From Methanothermococcus sp. SCGC AD-155-C09 (GTDB lineage Archaea > AGJL01 > Methanococci > Methanococcales > Methanococcaceae), in contig JAHEQB010000062.1 of assembly GCA_019561555.1 (NCBI GenBank), forward strand, positions 10,927 through 47,723: a stretch of 36,797 nt of DNA, given 5' to 3'. A program made the position numbers and the translations under genes. The notes under the pieces are model-generated. The model did not search any database, was not told the DNA's origin, and saw only the letters and a list, made by a program, of their open reading frames with translations. Positions 2,999-35,287 of the stretch are shown one piece after another (position 1 is the first letter of the stretch; every line of letters starts with the position of its first letter).

Positions 2999-3262
2999 TT
3001 ATAGTCAAGGACATAATAATTTATACTAATTATGGATATAGGATCACATACTTAAAGAAGTTCCTCTGCACTTCAGTATTTGGGGGTATAGGGGGAAAAT
3101 AGATAGTGGCATTAGGATTTCTACTTTTTAAATATTTACTTATTTTATTTCTTTAAAAATTTAATTTTTTCCCATATTTTAGGATTTAGGTTATTTAATT
3201 TTATTTATTTTTAATTTTTTACATTTAGATTATAGTTTAAAAAATTATGTTTTTAACTATAA
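2999..3262 (+). repeat. Dispersed MITE-like element, subfamily A, complete copy
   Basis: The left terminus begins TTATAGTCAAGGACATAA at 2999. The right terminus, read on the other strand from 3262, begins TTATAGTTAAAAACATAA. They pair as an inverted repeat of about 27 bp with a few mismatches. Inside lies the family core (CCTCTGCAC at 3063-3071 and GTATAGGGG at 3086-3094), which can form a 9-position stem with wobble pairs and one mismatch, followed by GGATTTCTACTTTTT and a T-rich tail. It has no coding potential. It fills the gap between the dehydratase subunit gene and the small zinc-ribbon gene. Confidence 0.75.
3014..3025 (-). promoter_or_regulatory. Candidate archaeal TATA box inside a repeat terminus
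   Basis: On the minus strand this reads TATAAATTATTA. A start about 22-25 bases downstream would fall near 2993-2996, giving a leader of about 15 nt that carries the GTGAT ribosome binding site of the dehydratase small subunit gene (start codon at 2979). The box is formed by the terminal inverted repeat of the dispersed element at 2999-3262. Spacing fits archaeal promoters, but the AT-rich background means such boxes also arise by chance. Confidence 0.4.
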
Positions 3263-5277: not shown

Positions 5278-6404
5278 TGAATTACCTTATTTTTAATTAT
5301 TTATTATTTTATTTTTTAATTATTATTTTTTTATATTTTAATAATTTTTTTTAATTTTTTTAATAATTATTATTTTTATGGGGATTCCTAATAAGGATTA
5401 TAATGGTTTATTTTAGTGTAAATAGTTTGTTTAAGACTTATTTAAAGTTTTAATTTAATTTTTTAATTATTATGGAGTATTAAATAAAAATAAGATAATT
5501 TAAAAAAATATTCTTAGATTATCTATTTTACTTTATTCTTTTTTATTTTTATTATTTTTTTAATGTTAATTATTTTTTTAAAATCTTTTCATAATTTTTG
5601 TTTTTTTGAGAATTATTAATGGGAATTAAGGTAGTTATTGCTATTTTGCCATAAATAATTTTTTAAAATTCCAATTTATATTTTAATAACTTTTTTAAAT
5701 TTTTTATTATTTATAAAAACTAATATATTTAATTATATTATATTATTAAATTTATATATTTAGTTTTATCATAATACTGGACCACAAAATACCTATTAGG
5801 TTCAAAAATTTTTTACCAAAGTAAAACTTAAAGACATAAGTTTAAATATATTAACTAAGCATATAGATAATAAAGTAAATAATCGTTATAGGCAAAAATA
5901 GGTATTCCATTGCAATAGTAAATAATTTTTTAAGACACTTGGAAATAAATAATAATAATCCTAAAAAAGTTATTTAAACTAAAAAAACTAATTCTCATTA
6001 AAAATCTTATAAAAAATAAAATTATTAAAATAAAAATAACTAAAATAAAATTATTAAAAATTTTTAATATAAGTTTTGTTTTAAAAACAAACCTTAAGAG
6101 CGATAAAAAAATAAATTAAAGCATCTAAGGGTGATCACATAAAGAGTAGAAATCCTGTCATCTATCTCTCCACGAATGCCCCTAAACACTGGAGGAGTAG
6201 GAGAATTTCTTTACAGTATAAATTATTAACTTTATAGGTTAAGAGGGGAGTTAAAATATTTTCCTGTTTAATATGCTATTATTTATTTTTAATTATTAAT
6301 TATTTTTATCATTATTATTTTATGTTAATCAGTTTAAAATATTAAATGTTTGAATATAATTAAAAAAGAGGGATAACATAGATAATAAAAGGGAAAAATG
6401 GGAT
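5278..6404. other. 1.1-kb intergenic region, mostly AT-rich; contains one B-type repeat core
   Basis: Between the divergent HTH and recombinase genes. 5280-5770 is almost pure A/T with no reading frame. A 10-bp inverted repeat, AATACCTATT at 5788-5797 and AATAGGTATT at 5897-5906, brackets about 100 bp of slightly higher complexity that may be remnant sequence. An imperfect palindrome of GTTTTGTTTT / AAAAACAAAC type sits at 6071-6093. A decayed subfamily B repeat core, reverse orientation, is at about 6125-6240. No gene is supported here. Confidence 0.5.
6125..6240 (-). repeat. Dispersed element, subfamily B core, partial, reverse orientation
   Basis: Read on the minus strand it carries CTGTAAAGAAATTCTC, then CAGTGTTTAGG, GGCATTCGTGGAGA and CAGGATTTCTACTCTTT, then ATGTGATCA. 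These blocks match in order the copies at 7955-8338 and 16915-17075. The terminal inverted repeats are not recognisable, so this is a decayed or truncated copy. Confidence 0.6.
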
Positions 6405-7954: not shown

Positions 7955-8338
7955 GTATAGTTAAGCACATAATTTAAACTTATTATTAATCTTTTAAAAT
8001 AATATAACTTCCATAATAGATCCGTAAAGAAATCCTGCCTACTTTCCCAGTGCGTAGGAGCATTCGTGGGTAATGATGGATTTCTGCTTTTTATATTTTT
8101 ACTCTTTTTTAAGTATTTTAAAATTTTAAATTTTAATTTTATTGTTTTTAATTTTGATTATCTATATTTTAATTTAAAATTTTTTATTTTTTTATTATTT
8201 CTTTTAATTTTTTTATTTTATATATTATTTTTTAATTTTTTAATATAATTTTTTAATATTTATTTTATTTTTATATGAGTATTCTTTTATAATTAAAGTT
8301 TTTATCAACATAAGTAATTTATGTTTATAACTGTAATT
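7955..8338 (+). repeat. Dispersed MITE-like element, subfamily B, with terminal inverted repeats
   Basis: The left end reads GTATAGTTAAGCACATAA, then TTTAAAC. The right end, on the other strand from 8338, reads AATTACAGTTATAAACATAA. The core has CCGTAAAGAAATCCTG, CAGTGCGTAGGAGCATTC, GTGGGTAATGATGGATTT and CTGCTTTTTATATTT, followed by a long T-rich tail. It fills the convergent gap between ncsA and thiI. Open frames inside it are low-complexity Phe/Leu/Ile-rich artefacts. Confidence 0.65.
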
Positions 8339-11419: not shown

Positions 11420-11690
11420 ATTATTGTAAAACATACAACATTTTAAACCTATTGTGGATATAGTGATCCAAATACTTAAAGAACTTCCTCTGCACTTTCA
11501 GTGCTCAGGAATGTAGGGGAAGGAAGGATAATGGTAGGGAATTTCTACTAATTTTTAGACATTTGCTTTTTTTCTTTATTTCTTTAAATATTCACTTTTT
11601 CTCTTGTATTTTTTTAAATATTTTTATTTTTTCTTTTAATGTCTATTTTAAATTATTTTATTTTTTTAATTTTTTTAATTATATTATTAA
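11420..11690 (+). repeat. Dispersed element, subfamily A, right end missing
   Basis: The left terminus is ATTGTAAAACATACAACA, then TTTTAAACC at 11441-11449. The core at about 11470-11550 reads TACTTAAAGAACTTCCTCTG, then CACTTTCAGTGCTCAGGA and ATGTAGGGGAAGG, with GGGAATTTCTACT downstream and a T-rich tail. No matching right inverted repeat is found before the prenyltransferase stop codon at 11695, so the copy is truncated or decayed. It fills most of the 420-bp gap between two minus-strand genes. Confidence 0.6.
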
Positions 11691-12531: not shown

Positions 12532-12544
12532 GATATCACAATAA

Positions 12545-12937
12545 TTATAGTTAAACACAATATTTTAACTTAATTTAGTAATGTAAATAATATAATAAAA
12601 ATAATTGAGGTAAATATTAATAGAAACAAATACTTTAAATCCCCACCTTGATTATTATGAACCATTAAATATATCTTATCAAAGGATTCCGCTCTATTCT
12701 CTCAGTGCTTAAGGACATAAGGACAATAAAAGACTTCTAATTTTATATATTTATTTTTTTCAGATGTTTTAAATTTTTGTATTTATTTTTTATTTTTTAT
12801 CTTAATTATCTTTTATTTTAATTATTCTTTATTTTTTTAATTATTTTAAATTATTTTTTAAAATTTTTATAATATTTTTTATAAGTATTCGAAATTAAGG
12901 TTTTTAATGAACATAAATGATTTTTATTTGGGGTAGA
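12545..12937 (+). repeat. Dispersed element, subfamily B, abutting an A element
   Basis: The left terminus ATTATAGTTAAACACAATA, then TTTTAACTT, lies 14 bp upstream of the prenyltransferase start codon. The core at about 12650-12770 has TTATTATGAACC, TCTCAGTGCTTAAGGA and AGACTTCTAATTTTATAT. The right part, AGTATTCGAAATTAAGG and TGAACATAAATGATTT, parallels the right end of the copy at 7955-8338 but then breaks off where the next element begins at 12938. The two elements therefore sit head to tail. Confidence 0.55.
12561..12568 (-). promoter_or_regulatory. Candidate TATA box for the prenyltransferase gene inside a repeat terminus
   Basis: Minus strand reads TTAAAATA in the inner part of the repeat terminus. 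A start about 24 bases downstream would fall near 12541-12544 and give a leader of about 10-13 nt that still contains the GTGAT ribosome binding site. Because the repeat begins only 14 bp from the start codon, any promoter must lie in the repeat. Sequence evidence is weak in this base composition. Confidence 0.3.
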
Positions 12938-13222
12938 ATTATAGTCAAGGATATAATAACTTAAACCTATTATGGAGATATGATTACATACTTAAAGGGT
13001 TTTCTCTGCACATCCAGTGCTTAGGGGTGTAGGGGAAGGAAGGTAAGTTATTGGATTTCTACTTTTTAATTATTTAATTTTCTTTTATTTCTTTAAATAC
13101 TTAATTTTTCCTATATTTTAGGATTTAAGTTATTAATTTTATTTATCTTTAATTTTTTTTAATTATTTTTATTTTTTTATATTTTAGATTATGGTTTAAA
13201 AAATTATGTTCTTAACTATAAT
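12938..13222 (+). repeat. Dispersed MITE-like element, subfamily A, complete copy
   Basis: One of the best-preserved copies. The left end is ATTATAGTCAAGGATATAA and the right end, read on the opposite strand, is ATTATAGTTAAGAACATAA; over 30 positions 24 match, and both end inward in TTAAACC. The core reads TACTTAAAGGGTTTTCTCTG, CACATCCAGTGCTTAGGGG and TGTAGGGGAAGG, followed by GGATTTCTACTTTTTAA and a T-rich tail. No target duplication is evident. It ends about 95 bp before the start of the downstream gene. Confidence 0.8.
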
Positions 13223-14151: not shown

Positions 14152-14545
14152 TATAGTCGTGGACATGATTATTTTTATACTAAAATAAAAAAATTTTATT
14201 AAAAGAACCCATAAAAAACAATTATTAAAAAAATAAAATAAGAAATAATAAAAATTTAAAATATTTAAAAAAAGTAAAGACATAAAAAAATAGAATTCTG
14301 CAATTGATAATATTAACATTAAAGTTTATTATTCAATATAAGAAATTCTCTCTTTTTCCTTAGTACTCAGAATAAGTATTAGGAAGAGGTATATAGGATC
14401 TTTTAATTTTATTTTTTTACTATTTCTTAAGTATTTTGAAATCTCAGATTATATTTTTATTTTATTATTTTTTAATTTTTAATTATTTTTAAATTATTTT
14501 TTTATTTATTTTTAACCTTAGTTCCCATCATCCCTTAATAATAGT
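14152..14545 (+). repeat. Decayed dispersed element (B-like) directly after a stop codon
   Basis: The left terminus TATAGTCGTGGACATGATTA, ending in TTTTATAC, starts immediately after the TAA of the endonuclease IV-like gene. A degenerate core at about 14340-14440 reads AAGAAATTCTC, CCTTAGTACTCAGAATAAG and ATAGGATCTTTTAATTTT, with a T-rich tail beyond. No clear right terminus; the next element begins at 14550. Confidence 0.45.
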
Positions 14546-14549
14546 AGGG

Positions 14550-14902
14550 ATTACAGTAAAAAACATATAAACATTTTAAACTTATTATGATATACAGTAA
14601 TCCAAATGCTTAAAGAACTTCCTCTGCACTTCCAGTGCTTAGGAGTGTAGGGGATGGCATATGGGATTTCTACTTTTTGAGTATTTGCTTTTTCCCTTAT
14701 GTCTTTAAGTATTTTATTTTTTTTCTCTATATTTAAGATTTAGATTAATTTTATTATTCTTTTGGGTTATGGGTTATTTTAATTTTATTTTTTTACTATT
14801 TTTAATTTTTTTTAAATTATTTTTTTATTTTTATTTTTTTAAATTGTTTTTATTTTTTATATTTGGATTATGGGTTTAATAATTTATGTTATTGATTATA
14901 AT
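14550..14902 (+). repeat. Dispersed MITE-like element, subfamily A, complete, flush with the glmS stop codon
   Basis: Left end ATTACAGTAAAAAACATATA, then TTTTAAAC; the right end on the other strand is ATTATAATCAATAACATAA, then ATTAAAC. The core CCTCTGCAC (14621-14629) pairs with GTGTAGGGG (14645-14653) over nine positions including two G-T pairs. From the core to the tail the copy is nearly identical to the one at 29171-29465, with about two differences in 140 bp. Its right end abuts the glmS stop codon (14903-14905), with no intervening base. Confidence 0.8.
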
Positions 14903-16756: not shown

Positions 16757-16914
16757 GGTTTTCACCGTTTATTAAAATTAATGGGTTATTATAAATAATA
16801 TTTTTTATGCCCCATAATAAACTTTAATATATTTTATTCTATTAAATTATAATTAATATGTAAATTTTAAAATTATAATCTTTTATAATAATAAAAAAGT
16901 ATAAAACATTAACA

Positions 16915-17075
16915 AAGAAAATTACTTTAAAATCCATCTTAGATTATTATGAACTTTTATTTTTATTCTATTCTGTAAAGAAATTCCACATATCCTCTAT
17001 TGTTTAGGAACATTCGTGGAGAATAACGATAAGATTTTATTTTTTATGTGATTCTCCTTTTTTAAATATTTTAAA
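16915..17075 (+). repeat. Dispersed element, subfamily B core
   Basis: The core carries GATTATTATGAAC, TTCTGTAAAGAAATTCC, CTATTGTTTAGGAACATTC, GTGGAGAATAACGATAAG and ATTTTATTTTTTATGTGA, in the same order as copies at 6125, 7955, 19436 and 23005. Terminal repeats are degenerate (GTATAAAACATTAACAAAG near 16899). A T-rich tail runs on toward the tgtA stop codon. It occupies the 500-bp gap between two minus-strand genes. Confidence 0.6.
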
Positions 17076-17259
17076 ACTTGGACTTCTTATTCATTTTATT
17101 TAGTTATTCTTTATTTTTTTATAATTTATTATTATTTCATTTATCTAATTAAATTATTTAATTTATTATAACTATTTTTTTAAATATAAAATTTTTAATT
17201 TTTAAATTACTTTTTTAATAATTTTTATTATTTTTTATTATATTATTTTTTTATATTTT

Positions 17260-19221: not shown

Positions 19222-19435
19222 TAAATCACCTTTAAGGGAGTTATGTAATAATATGTCCATAATAAAAATTAATTAAAATAAATTTTAAAATAAATTATTA
19301 AAAACATTATATAAAAAAAATGATAATGTTATAAAAATTATTTAATTAATAAATTAAAAAAATAAAAAAAATTTATAAATTATGATTATAAAATAAAAAA
19401 TAACGAATAATAATTAAAATAAAATAGGAAATCTA

Positions 19436-19590
19436 GGTTTTAAAATATTTAAGGAAAGAGAATCACATAAAAAATAAAATCTTATCATTATTCTTCTTAA
19501 TGCTTTGAGCACTGAAAGAACAGGGTAGTATCCTTAACAAGAATAGCATTATGAAAATTCATAATATGTTAAGATCGAGATTTGAAGTAT
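19436..19590 (-). repeat. Dispersed element, subfamily B core, reverse orientation
   Basis: On the minus strand: ATTATGAATTTTCATAAT (perfect 8-bp stem with a 2-base centre), GTTCTTTCAGTGCTC, GCATTAAGAAGAATAATGA, TAAGATTTTATTTTTTATG and TGATTCTCTTTCC. Blocks match 16915-17075 and 23005-23175. It sits in the gap between tgtA and pth2, which diverge; the rest of that gap (19222-19758) is A/T-rich and has no gene. Confidence 0.6.
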
Positions 19591-19758
19591 TTTTTTAATT
19601 AATATTTTATACTTATTATACTTATTTTATTTTTTTATATTATTTTTATATTTTAAATAATAAATTAATTTTATACATTTCTATAAATATCCCTAAATAT
19701 AAAAAATATTATGAATATAAAAAAATAACCGTTATTTATTAAGAAATAAGGAGAAAGC

Positions 19759-21409: not shown

Positions 21410-22861
21410 ATGGGATTTCTCGATAAAATACTTACAATATTTAAGAAAGGCCCTAAGATACACTATGCAAAATCTCAAGATGTTGATTTAATAGAATTAA
21501 AAAAAAATCCCTACTATATTGTGGCATCTGTTGAATTAGGAAATACCACTACAAAATCCATAATCACAGGAACCAACATGGAAACAGGTATTACCTATAT
21601 AATAAGTAAGTATGTAAAAATGACAAGGGATGTAAGGCCTCCAAAAAAGGGAGAAGAAGTATTTGGAAAGACCCTTTGGGGAGTGGAATTGAGCAAAGGG
21701 GCAGTTTCAGATATGGTTAAGGATGTATTAATTGGGGCCTTAAAAAGGGGAAATCTTACAGTGGATGACCTTCACTTCGTAGTTAGAAGTACTGGGGTTA
21801 CTGCAGGCTTTGCCTCTCCAGAGGAAATATCAAATATGATAGTTGCCCTTGCAGATGGCTGTTTAAAGGCTGGAGTACCTCCTTCAAAGATGGCTCCTGC
21901 AATGAGTAAAAACCAACTTCCAAAACCCTTTGATAAATATTGTTTAATGGACAAAATAATATTTGACGGTGCAGTAACAGGAGTAGTACCTCCAACAGGT
22001 AAGGAGGTTGTTGCCAATGAAATGGAGGGGGAATTAGTTACTGCAGGTATAAAGGTTGGGGCAAAATGGACCCAGGTGGATTTCAGAAATCCTTGTATGA
22101 GTATAGACTTTGGTACAACCCTTGCAGGTAGAATTACAAATGATAAAAAGCCCTATGCAAATGTTACTGGCAATCTATGTGGCCTTGCTGGGGCCATTGC
22201 CGATGCAATAGTTAGGGGTAGTGGTCTTGTAAGTAAGGATAAGGGGGCAGTATTGGATATAAAAAATAGGGAAGGTAAGATAAATAAGGAACTTGGGGAA
22301 AAATATGGAGAAGAGGCCCATAAGTATATAAAAATCTGTGAGGTTCCAATGGACGTGGAGAGATTCGGAACAGTGCCTGTAAATCCAGAAAGTGCAAAAA
22401 AGGCTGGAACAATATTAATAGGTTGTGATGTTGGAGAGAATGGAAGCGATATTCCAAAATTGGAGGAAATTGGAAAAAAAATAATGGAGGAAAGTAATAC
22501 TCCAACTCTATTATATACTTTGGACATAGTATCGGCCCAAATAACAAAAAGACTTGTAGAATTAGCAAAGGACAAAGGTATTGTAAATAGTAAAAGTGCC
22601 ATTGGAATAACTGGAAGGGCGGGAATAACTGGAAATAAACCTAAGTTAATAATAGAAAAACTTGGAGAATTAAATATATGGGAAAAACCTGAGGATAACG
22701 TAGTATTTGTTGAAGATGGGCTTGCATTAGGGGCAAGTATTATGGCAAGATGTATGAATTGCTTAGGCACTCCACAGAATCCTATTGGAGGAAATAGGGG
22801 AGATAATTGTATATTGGGAGAAAGAAGAAAATTACAGAAGGAAAGAGGCATGATAAGATAA
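21410..22861 (+). CDS. Methanogenesis marker protein 14
   Basis: 483-residue protein of the family conserved across methanogens under the name methanogenesis marker 14. Recognised by VASVELGNTTTKSIITGT near the N-terminus, FVVRSTGVTAGFASPEE, the middle stretch NPCMSIDFGTTLAGRITND, GLAGAIADAIVRGSG, and the C-terminal GITGRAGITGNKP and EDGLALGASIMARCMN. The glycine-rich phosphate-type loops (ELGNTTTK and DFGTTLAG) suggest an actin/Hsp70-like ATPase fold related to reductive activators of corrinoid proteins; this is inference. Its exact role, perhaps in methyl-coenzyme M reductase maturation, is not established by this sequence. ATG 21410 is preferred because AAAGGGATATTT precedes it; an ATG 14 codons earlier lacks this. 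It is a single-gene unit between repeat-bearing gaps. Confidence 0.9.
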   Translation: MGFLDKILTIFKKGPKIHYAKSQDVDLIELKKNPYYIVASVELGNTTTKSIITGTNMETGITYIISKYVKMTRDVRPPKKGEEVFGKTLWGVELSKGAVSDMVKDVLIGALKRGNLTVDDLHFVVRSTGVTAGFASPEEISNMIVALADGCLKAGVPPSKMAPAMSKNQLPKPFDKYCLMDKIIFDGAVTGVVPPTGKEVVANEMEGELVTAGIKVGAKWTQVDFRNPCMSIDFGTTLAGRITNDKKPYANVTGNLCGLAGAIADAIVRGSGLVSKDKGAVLDIKNREGKINKELGEKYGEEAHKYIKICEVPMDVERFGTVPVNPESAKKAGTILIGCDVGENGSDIPKLEEIGKKIMEESNTPTLLYTLDIVSAQITKRLVELAKDKGIVNSKSAIGITGRAGITGNKPKLIIEKLGELNIWEKPEDNVVFVEDGLALGASIMARCMNCLGTPQNPIGGNRGDNCILGERRKLQKERGMIR

Positions 22862-23004
22862 TGAATAAAAAAATAAATAATATAATTAAAAAAATAAAAT
22901 ATAATAAAATTAATTTAAAATTTATTTTATAAAAAATATTATAAAAATATAAAAAATAGACTATTTAATAGAATAAAAAATAAAAAATAATTAAATTATT
23001 ATAA

Positions 23005-23175
23005 AAAATCTAAGATTTTAAAGTACTTGAAAAGGGAGTAAATAATAAAAAGTAAAAACCCTATCATTATTCTTCTTAATGCTCCTAAGCACTGGGGGGC
23101 AGGTGGGGGTCCTTTGGCAGGACTATATTATGAAGATTTCATACTCAGACTAAGGTAGAGGGATTTAAAGTATTC
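23005..23175 (-). repeat. Dispersed element, subfamily B core, reverse orientation
   Basis: Minus strand: ATGAAATCTTCATAATATAG, GTCCTGCCAAAGGACC, CCCCAGTGCTTAGGAGCATT, AAGAAGAATAATGATAGGG and TTTTTACTTTTTATTATTT, then AAGTACTTTAAAATCTTAG. It is one of the better-preserved B copies. Terminal inverted repeats are not clear; AT-rich DNA fills the rest of the 22862-23372 gap, and no gene is seen. Confidence 0.6.
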
Positions 23176-23372
23176 TCTTTATTGTTATTTTATCCTTTCA
23201 TTATTCTATTATATTATTTATATTTAAATTAAGTGATATGCATTTAATTATAAACTATTTTAAACTATAATTAAATTATTATTTACTATTTATTTTATTA
23301 TAATTAAATTTATTTATTATTAATTTATTAATTTTTTTAATTAAATTTTTAAATATAAATGGTGATTCTAAA

Positions 23373-25545: not shown

Positions 25546-25637
25546 AAAAATTAAAAACAAAATTAAAGTAAAAATAAAATTTTAAAATACTTAAAAAAGA
25601 ATAAATATAAAAAATAAATAAAATAATAATTAAAAAA

Positions 25638-25848
25638 ATTAAAAATAAACATGAAATCAATAATCTAAATTCTAAGATATAGGGAAAAATTAAATATTTA
25701 AAAAAATAAAAAAAGCAAATAGAGTAGAAATTCCCTACCGCTATCCTCTCTCTACACGCCTAAGCACTGAAAGTGCAGAGGAAGTCCTTTAAGCATTTGG
25801 ATTACTATATTATAATAGATTTAAGATGTTATGTGTTTTACTACAATA
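25638..25848 (-). repeat. Dispersed MITE-like element, subfamily A, reverse orientation
   Basis: On the minus strand the leading terminus is TATTGTAGTAAAACACATAA, then CATCTTAAATC. The core reads TGCTTAAAGGACTTCCTCTG, CACTTTCAGTGCTTAGGCG and TGTAGAGAGAGG, followed by GGGAATTTCTACTCTATTTG and a T-rich tail. The far terminus at about 25638-25662 is weak. It fills part of the 570-bp gap between flpA and the PHP gene; 25849-26117 is A/T-rich with nothing recognised except the TTG-start ribosome binding site. Confidence 0.65.
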
Positions 25849-28689: not shown

Positions 28690-28885
28690 TATTATTAGTT
28701 TAGTAAAACATTTAGTAAAATATACAACATATGGATGTAGTAATCTCATACCTAAAGGACTTTCTCTGCACTTTCAGTGATTAGGGATGTGGGGAGATGG
28801 AGGATAGCATAGGGAATTTCTGTTACTTTTTAGGTATTTAATTTTCTTTATTTTTTTTAAGTATTTTTATTTTTTCCCTTATATA
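28690..28885 (+). repeat. Dispersed element, subfamily A, degraded ends
   Basis: A disrupted left terminus (TAGTAAAACATTTAGTAAAA) is followed by the core: CATACCTAAAGGACTTTCTC, TGCACTTTCAGTGATTAGGG and ATGTGGGGAGATGGAGG, then AGGGAATTTCTGTTACTTTT and a T-rich tail. No right terminus. It is the first of three A copies in the 1.37-kb gene-free stretch between nadA and trpC. Confidence 0.6.
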
Positions 28886-28987: not shown

Positions 28988-29533
28988 AAATTATAGTCAA
29001 TAATAATTTAAACTATTATGGATATAGGATCGCATACTTAAAGGGTTTCCCACTTCAGTGCTTTGGTGTAGGGGGAAGGAGAGTAGGTTATGGGATTTCT
29101 ACTTTTTAGGTATTTACTTTTCTTTATTTCTTTAAGAATTTAATTTTTTATTTTTAAGATCTATATTATTTTATAGTCAGGCACATAATATTTTAAACTT
29201 ATTATAGTGTAATAATCCTCTACTTAAAGGACTTTCTCTGCACTTCCAGTGCTTAGGCGTGTAGGGGATGGCATATGGGATTTCTACTTTTTGAGTATTT
29301 GCTTTTTCTCTTATGTCTTTAAGTATTTTATTTTTTTTCTCTATATTTAAGATTTAGATTAATTTTATTATTATTCTTTTGGGTTATTTTAATTTTATTT
29401 TTTTATTATTTTTAATTTTTTTATATTTAAATTATAAGTTTAAGAAATTATGTTCTTAACTATAATTATTTTATTATTTTTATTTTTTATATTTAGATTT
29501 GTGGATTTAAGAAACTTATGCTCTTGACTATAT
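28988..29533 (+). repeat. Dispersed A element interrupted by a second A element (nested insertion)
   Basis: The outer copy has left end AATTATAGTCAATAATAATT, its own core (CATACTTAAAGGGTTTCC, CACTTCAGTGCTTTGG, TGTAGGGGGAAGG, GGGATTTCTACTTTTTAGG) up to about 29165, and its right end on the other strand is AATATAGTCAAGAGCATAAG, then TTTCTTAAATCC, at about 29503-29533. Between these lies the complete inner element 29171-29465. Removing the inner copy leaves an outer element of about 250 bp, the usual size. Confidence 0.7.
29171..29465 (+). repeat. Dispersed MITE-like element, subfamily A, intact inner copy with 5-bp target duplication
   Basis: Left end TTATAGTCAGGCACATAATA, then TTTTAAAC; right end on the other strand TTATAGTTAAGAACATAA, then TTTCTTAAAC. 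It is flanked by TTATT at 29166-29170 and TTATT at 29466-29470, a possible 5-bp target duplication. The core TCTCTGCAC pairs with GTGTAGGGG at 29259-29267. From core to tail it differs from the 14550-14902 copy at only about two positions in 140, so both are young or homogenised. Confidence 0.8.
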
Positions 29534-31628: not shown

Positions 31629-32070
31629 TTATAGTCAAGTACATAATATTTTAAACTATAATCCTCAAAGTAATAAGAATAGAAGAGGATAAAATAACAA
31701 AGAAGGATACCTTAGGTCCCTATCTTACTGAGTATGGGATTTTATAATTATTCTATAAATGATTTTACTTCTTTCCAAGTACTCAGGGCATTAAGGGGAA
31801 AAATAACGATATAGATTTTAATTTTTTTAATTTATTATATTTTTTTGATATTTTAAAATTTTTATTTATTTTAATAATTTATTTTTAATTTTTAATTATT
31901 TTATTTTTTTTATGGTGGATAAATACGTTTAAAACTATATTATAGTCAAACACATAACCTTAACTCATCTTCTAAAAATTTATAATAACTGCTGCAAACA
32001 ACATATTATATAATTTTTTTAAAAGTTCTATCAACTACGGTTTAAAATATTTTATGTGCTAAACTATAAA
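31629..32070 (+). repeat. Composite dispersed element in the trpD-trpF gap
   Basis: The left end TTATAGTCAAGTACATAATA, then TTTTAAAC, is at 31629. B-like core blocks (TTTACTTCTTTCCAAGTACT, CAGGGCATTAAGGGG, AACGATATAGATTTTAATTT) lie at about 31760-31830. A second left-type terminus TTATAGTCAAACACATAACC begins at 31939, and a right terminus, on the other strand TTTATAGTTTAGCACATAAA, then TTTTAAACC, ends at about 32070. Either one rearranged element or two adjacent ones, the second only about 130 bp. No transposase frame. Confidence 0.6.
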
Positions 32071-34981: not shown

Positions 34982-35061
34982 TATATTTACAAAATAAAAT
35001 AAATAAAAAAATAATTTTAAAAAAATTAAAATAAATTAATAAATAAAAAAAATAAAAATTT

Positions 35062-35287
35062 ATTGAAAAATAACAAAATTAATCTAAATTTTAAGATAAA
35101 AGAAAAAAATAAAATATTTAAAGGGATAAAGAAAGTAAATACTAAAGATAATAAGAAAAATAAAAAAGTAGAAATTCCATATGCCATTCTCCTTCCTCCT
35201 ACACTCCCAAGCACTGGAATTAAGGGGAAATCTTTAAGTATAGGATCACTATATTATAATAAGTTTAAAATGTTATGTGTTTTATAT
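35062..35287 (-). repeat. Dispersed MITE-like element, subfamily A, reverse orientation
   Basis: On the minus strand the leading terminus reads AATATAAAACACATAACA, then TTTTAAACTT, at 35261-35288. The core reads ATACTTAAAGATTTCC, CCAGTGCTTGGGAGTGTAGG and AGGAAGG, with ATGGAATTTCTACTTTTTTA downstream. It fills the gap between trpA and the convergent ccdA. Weak similarity to the far terminus is seen near 35062-35090. Open frames in it are low-complexity artefacts. Confidence 0.62.

Follow-up and report, generated by a model that had tools for sequence, protein, structure and literature searches.

A nested pair of MITE copies in the nadA–trpC spacer of a Methanothermococcus genome, probably mobilised at TA by an IS630-family transposase

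The window, the whole stretch of 36,797 nucleotides analysed here, is part of contig C62 of a 1.73-Mb Methanococcales genome (G000). Its intergenic region between nadA and trpC holds three copies of one MITE family: a partial copy (28730–28882, plus strand; model positions 33–179, 90.0 bits) and a nested pair, in which a complete copy lies within another. Both members of the pair are assigned to the same family by a profile HMM, for which 28 full copies served as input. The left part of the outer copy (TAGTCAATAATAATTTAAAC..., 28994–29173, plus strand; HMM match 28992–29172, 125.5 bits) ends with the TA that the inner copy targeted. The inner copy follows as a complete element of 289 bp (TAGTCAGGCACATAAT...ATTATGTTCTTAACTA, 29174–29462, plus strand; HMM match 29172–29465, 199.7 bits). 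The right part of the outer copy (29465–29530, plus strand; HMM match 29469–29532) ends in ...TTATGCTCTTGACTA and scores 14.4 bits alone. When the two outer parts are joined, they match the model from 2 to 298 at 147.5 bits.

A preliminary description had placed an outer element at 28988 to about 29533 and an inner one at 29171–29465. The nesting stands, and the profile HMM moves the boundaries to 28994–29530 and 29174–29462. It had also stated that removing the inner copy restores an element of usual size. Without the inner copy and one TA, the outer copy comes to 246 bp, among the shortest for a family whose full copies measure 247–348 bp. The outer copy is itself flanked by TA. On the left (28992–28993), the closest named relative for which the locus could be compared, Methanothermococcus sp. 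SCGC AD-155-M21 (G007), matches the flank as far as the target TA (AAAAAAATTA) and departs from it beyond that point. The right TA (29531–29532) is assigned on sequence alone, and this junction is without counterpart in AD-155-M21.

The family has the features of a MITE. Its members are short (under ~500 bp) and non-coding, carry terminal inverted repeats of ~17–35 bp (TAGTCAAGSACATAAT / ATTATGTTCTTAACTA) and occur as many dispersed copies without counterpart at orthologous sites in relatives. The profile gives 138 matches of at least 40 bits in 686 kb of G000, amounting to 4.8% of bases, in stretches picked partly for holding MITE copies. An end pattern, counted over the whole genome from the terminal inverted repeats, has 115 occurrences in the sample and 211 genome-wide; scaled accordingly, the copy number is ~250. 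G007 has 12 copies in 535 kb. Of the intergenic DNA in the G000 sample, 15% belongs to the family, or 24% if an older related core is included, and only 1 of the 138 matches lies mostly inside an ORF of at least 100 aa. Nesting is not in excess: 3 of the 58 copies tested lie across another copy, in addition to the nadA–trpC pair, and this frequency is not above the 15–24% coverage of intergenic DNA. Nesting therefore needs no special cause, because the density of the family in intergenic DNA accounts for how often it occurs.

Further copies lie elsewhere in the window. Two are full length, at 12940–13221 (plus strand, 209.2 bits; not in the orthologous region of contig C98 of G007) and 3000–3262 (plus strand, 177.4 bits). 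Others are found at 25604–25844 (minus strand, 126.9 bits), 11424–11658 (plus strand, 120.5 bits) and 35057–35283 (minus strand, 115.8 bits). A copy of the inner copy's subgroup occupies 14552–14900 (plus strand; 143.1 bits for 14552–14810), and its site is empty in both G007 and the other closest named relative in databases, Methanothermococcus okinawensis isolate SZUA-1385 (G002). It forms part of a composite insertion at 14152–14900, an older and a young copy together, which has no counterpart in G007 or G002 and carries a few extra bases at its right junction. The copies at 11424, 12940 and 14152–14900, and one of older type at 7956, lie in blocks missing from one or both relatives.

The older-looking subfamily is ~400 bp long and contains the MITE core. 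Members in the window lie at 7955–8335, 12540–12925, 16789–17216, 19264–19680 and 22853–23360. The core is related to that of the young family, and the ends are partly degraded, with the left end recognisable in many copies. Outside the young family, this subfamily gives 121 matches in the G000 sample and 54 in G007 (535 kb). Its presence in both genomes makes the family older than their divergence and places the burst in G000 after that. Repeat matches on contigs C1 and C47 of G007 share identical coordinates (for example 5867–6157), suggesting that these two contigs are redundant.

In several genomes, the older subfamily has the GC-richer core (CTGCACTTCCAGTGCTTAGG ... GGGATTTCTACTTTTTA) of the young MITE. 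Rfam has no match in the window, and consensus folding of 126 unique cores, in a gappy alignment, yields no conserved RNA structure. Folded singly, the cores have a mean z of -1.7 against simple shuffles. One idea, which we consider unlikely, is that selection keeps the core, for instance as a transposition signal or as a regulatory or RNA element dispersed among genes. If selection did maintain it, about a quarter of the intergenic DNA of G000 would be one dispersed functional cassette.

In AD-155-M21 (locus L012), nadA is followed by trpC without any of the three spacer copies. The nadA locus of G002 is unusable, as its downstream sequence is unrelated. Together with clean empty sites for other family copies, the AD-155-M21 spacer upholds the preliminary view that the nested pair reflects mobility and not local duplication. 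A stretch of ~115 bp, from 29533 to about 29650, lies between the right end of the outer copy and conserved DNA upstream of trpC and is likewise without counterpart in AD-155-M21; it may be another insertion, or the relative may have suffered a deletion.

The nested arrangement could in principle stem from local duplication or from recombination between copies. Repeats are dense in the spacer, and copies of the insertion sequence described below look mosaic, so copies do recombine. Such an origin is nevertheless very improbable, because nothing is missing from the inner copy, which retains both ends and has TA on each side, and the outer copy is continuous once the inner one is removed. The two also differ in subgroup. 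The inner copy falls into a small subgroup, with its nearest relatives elsewhere in the genome: it shares 89% identity, over its full length, with L027:14680–14979, a copy with a clean empty site in a relative, and, along 153 nt, 97% with the copy at position 14609 of the window. The outer copy is nearest to others (L035, L036). Insertion of one element into another is thus the preferred origin of the pair. The order of events at this locus, outer copy then inner, is a reading of structure, and an outer-only allele was not found in the relatives.

What the inner copy duplicated on insertion was decided from the family as a whole. At their termini, copies read (T)TA-TAGTCAAGSACATAAT on the left and ATTATGTTCTTAACTA-TA(A) on the right, and 51 of 58 full copies have TA at both ends. 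The host bases around these 58 copies give a palindromic target consensus, AAT-TA-ATT. The T or A outside the flanking TA is a host base, with a preference of 81%. Four clean empty orthologous sites were found in close relatives, and all are consistent with a 2-bp TA duplication. A single TA stands at the empty counterparts in G007 of L027:14678 (contig C2), L034:13203 (C38) and L122:13435 (C2), where the match is letter-perfect. At the fourth, L036:2733, the relative (G007:C13) has TC at the TA, a TA-to-TC change. At L034:13203, for example, the occupied site has two TAs, ACTTTATTTA[TAGTTAAG...TTGACTA]TAACTTTTAAAATTAATT, and its empty counterpart, GACTTTATTTAACTTTTAAAATTAATT, has one. A TATA duplication, suggested by ends of the form TTATAGT/ACTATAA, was considered and rejected, as the empty sites of L027, L034 and L122 carry a single TA without TATA.

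The preliminary description had proposed TTATT as a 5-bp target duplication. This string is indeed present on either side of the inner copy, at 29166–29170 and 29466–29470, and would suit nesting, with a 5-bp duplication, of a MITE that belongs to a different IS family. The family as a whole speaks against it. Exact 5-bp flank matches occur in 2 of 33 full copies against 0.84 expected from cross-pairing, which is chance level, and a scan over offsets for lengths of 2–12 detects no direct duplication signal. Sister copies have empty sites that give 2 bp, not 5. The profile fit of the restored outer copy points the same way, with 147.5 bits for a TA duplication, 142.4 for no duplication and 138.2 for TTATT, the last 9.3 bits below TA. 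A reading based on a 5-bp duplication is therefore extremely improbable. The most plausible reading of TTATT is coincidence in AT-rich DNA, the very outcome that the preliminary description had named as fatal to its proposal.

We accordingly take TA as the target duplication. For the inner copy, the TAs at 29172–29173 and 29463–29464 are assigned by the family rule (TA at empty sites), and the restored outer copy, which fits the profile better that way, agrees. Under this assignment, the outer copy without the inner one is expected to read ...CTATATTATTTTAATTATTTTATT..., and the corresponding outer-only reading, expected if TTATT is wrong, is CTATATTATTTTAATTATTTT. TA target duplication is the signature of IS630/Tc1/mariner elements. 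Correcting the duplication length to TA thus decides the family to which the MITE belongs.

G000 holds a 1.1-kb IS630-family IS, as three full-length copies and pieces at contig ends. Both ORFs are open in only one copy, L118:1597–2706 (contig C32), with an HTH half of 159 aa and a DDE half of 181 aa in the -1 frame. The ORFs meet at ATTTTAAAAAAAACTTGA, an A8 tract, and this arrangement implies a putative frameshift. The site is identical in all seven IS copies that include it, though most copies are otherwise broken. The C32 element matches PF13358 with an E value of 9.3e-28. Against NF033545 (IS630), the second half scores 126.1 bits, above the cut-off, and the first half 97.6, just below 100. 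The acidic residues are of the DD34E type, with 34 residues between D and E, as expected of an IS630-family DDE transposase.

This IS provides a partner with matching ends. Over 16 bases on the left (TAGTCAAGCACATAAT) and 17 on the right (TAGTTAAGAACATAATT), it has the ends of the MITE consensus, and differences between the left and right ends are common to both elements (CAAGCAC left, TAAGAAC right in the young MITE and the IS). The identity is limited to these ~17 bases, and the interiors are unrelated. Among the genomes searched, an intact IS was seen in G000 alone, and the MITE burst is confined to that genome. Only decayed relics of the IS were found in G007. A Pfam search of 41 genomes revealed a DDE_3 transposase in G000 and none in other genomes of the genus or family, though an intact IS may have been missed in G007 and G002, which are 54% and 81% complete.

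Two further observations concern the IS. A second MITE of ~100 bp, similar to the final 108 bp of this element, occurs in the window at 31941–32036 and at L122:13435–13534, L036:424–526 and L118:19341–19441. The IS copies (L118:1597–2706, L137, L140, L135, L136, L138 and L139) have odd changes in common, arranged in blocks and combined like a mosaic, as would result if decayed copies had recombined with one another.

Another TA-specific transposase, now lost, might have mobilised the MITEs, with the resident IS630 merely a relative with similar ends. The older, longer subfamily is common in G007, where the IS survives as decayed relics only. We regard a lost source as unlikely, since the resident IS has the same left/right end differences as the young MITE, whose burst is restricted to the genome with the intact IS. 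From the sequences, we strongly infer that the resident IS is what would move the MITE.

We therefore propose, with high confidence, that the outer and the inner copy are members of one non-autonomous, non-coding MITE family, that an IS630-family (IS630/Tc1/mariner) transposase mobilises this family in trans with insertion at TA, and that the outer copy entered the nadA–trpC spacer before the inner one. The transposase, probably supplied by the IS in C32 and not by a lost relative, would recognise inverted ends of the TAGTCAAGSACATAAT type. Movement would be by cut-and-paste, and the two spacer copies presumably moved likewise. Insertion would occur at TA, with AATTAATT as the preferred context, and a TA would be left on either side. 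The spacer would have received the outer copy first; a copy of another subgroup would later have inserted at a TA within the AT-rich right half of that element, producing the nested pair.

The analysis offers a well-documented IS630–MITE pair for Methanococcales. At about 250 copies and roughly 5% of the sampled DNA, the burst in G000 is unusually large. The same genome also holds the partner IS with both ORFs open, and close relatives provide the empty sites. No MITE paper mentioning Methanothermococcus was found in the collection of open-access papers searched.

Among archaea, MITEs paired with resident ISs were reportedly described in Sulfolobus solfataricus by Redder et al. in 2001. Those are likewise archaeal non-autonomous elements with the ends of resident ISs, but lineage and sequences differ, and the likeness is by description only. 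In bacteria, IS630-type MITEs are already known, and the mechanism is well known. RUP of Streptococcus pneumoniae is a 107-bp MITE with about 108 copies, ends like those of the resident IS630-Spn1 and insertion at TA, for which trans-mobilisation has been proposed (PMC2229807). The present family shares with it the non-coding character, the intergenic location, terminal similarity to a resident IS630-family IS and the use of TA as target. RUP is shorter (107 bp against about 290 bp), has short ends and comes from a bacterium, and the likeness shown is one of organisation, not of sequence. MITEPlu5 of Photorhabdus luminescens, with 552 complete copies, a terminal TA duplication and ends related to IS630-type elements, is similar in combining high copy number with these two features (PMC6267812). 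It is also bacterial, measures 123 bp and has a very strong secondary structure, whereas no conserved fold was found in the core of the family described here.
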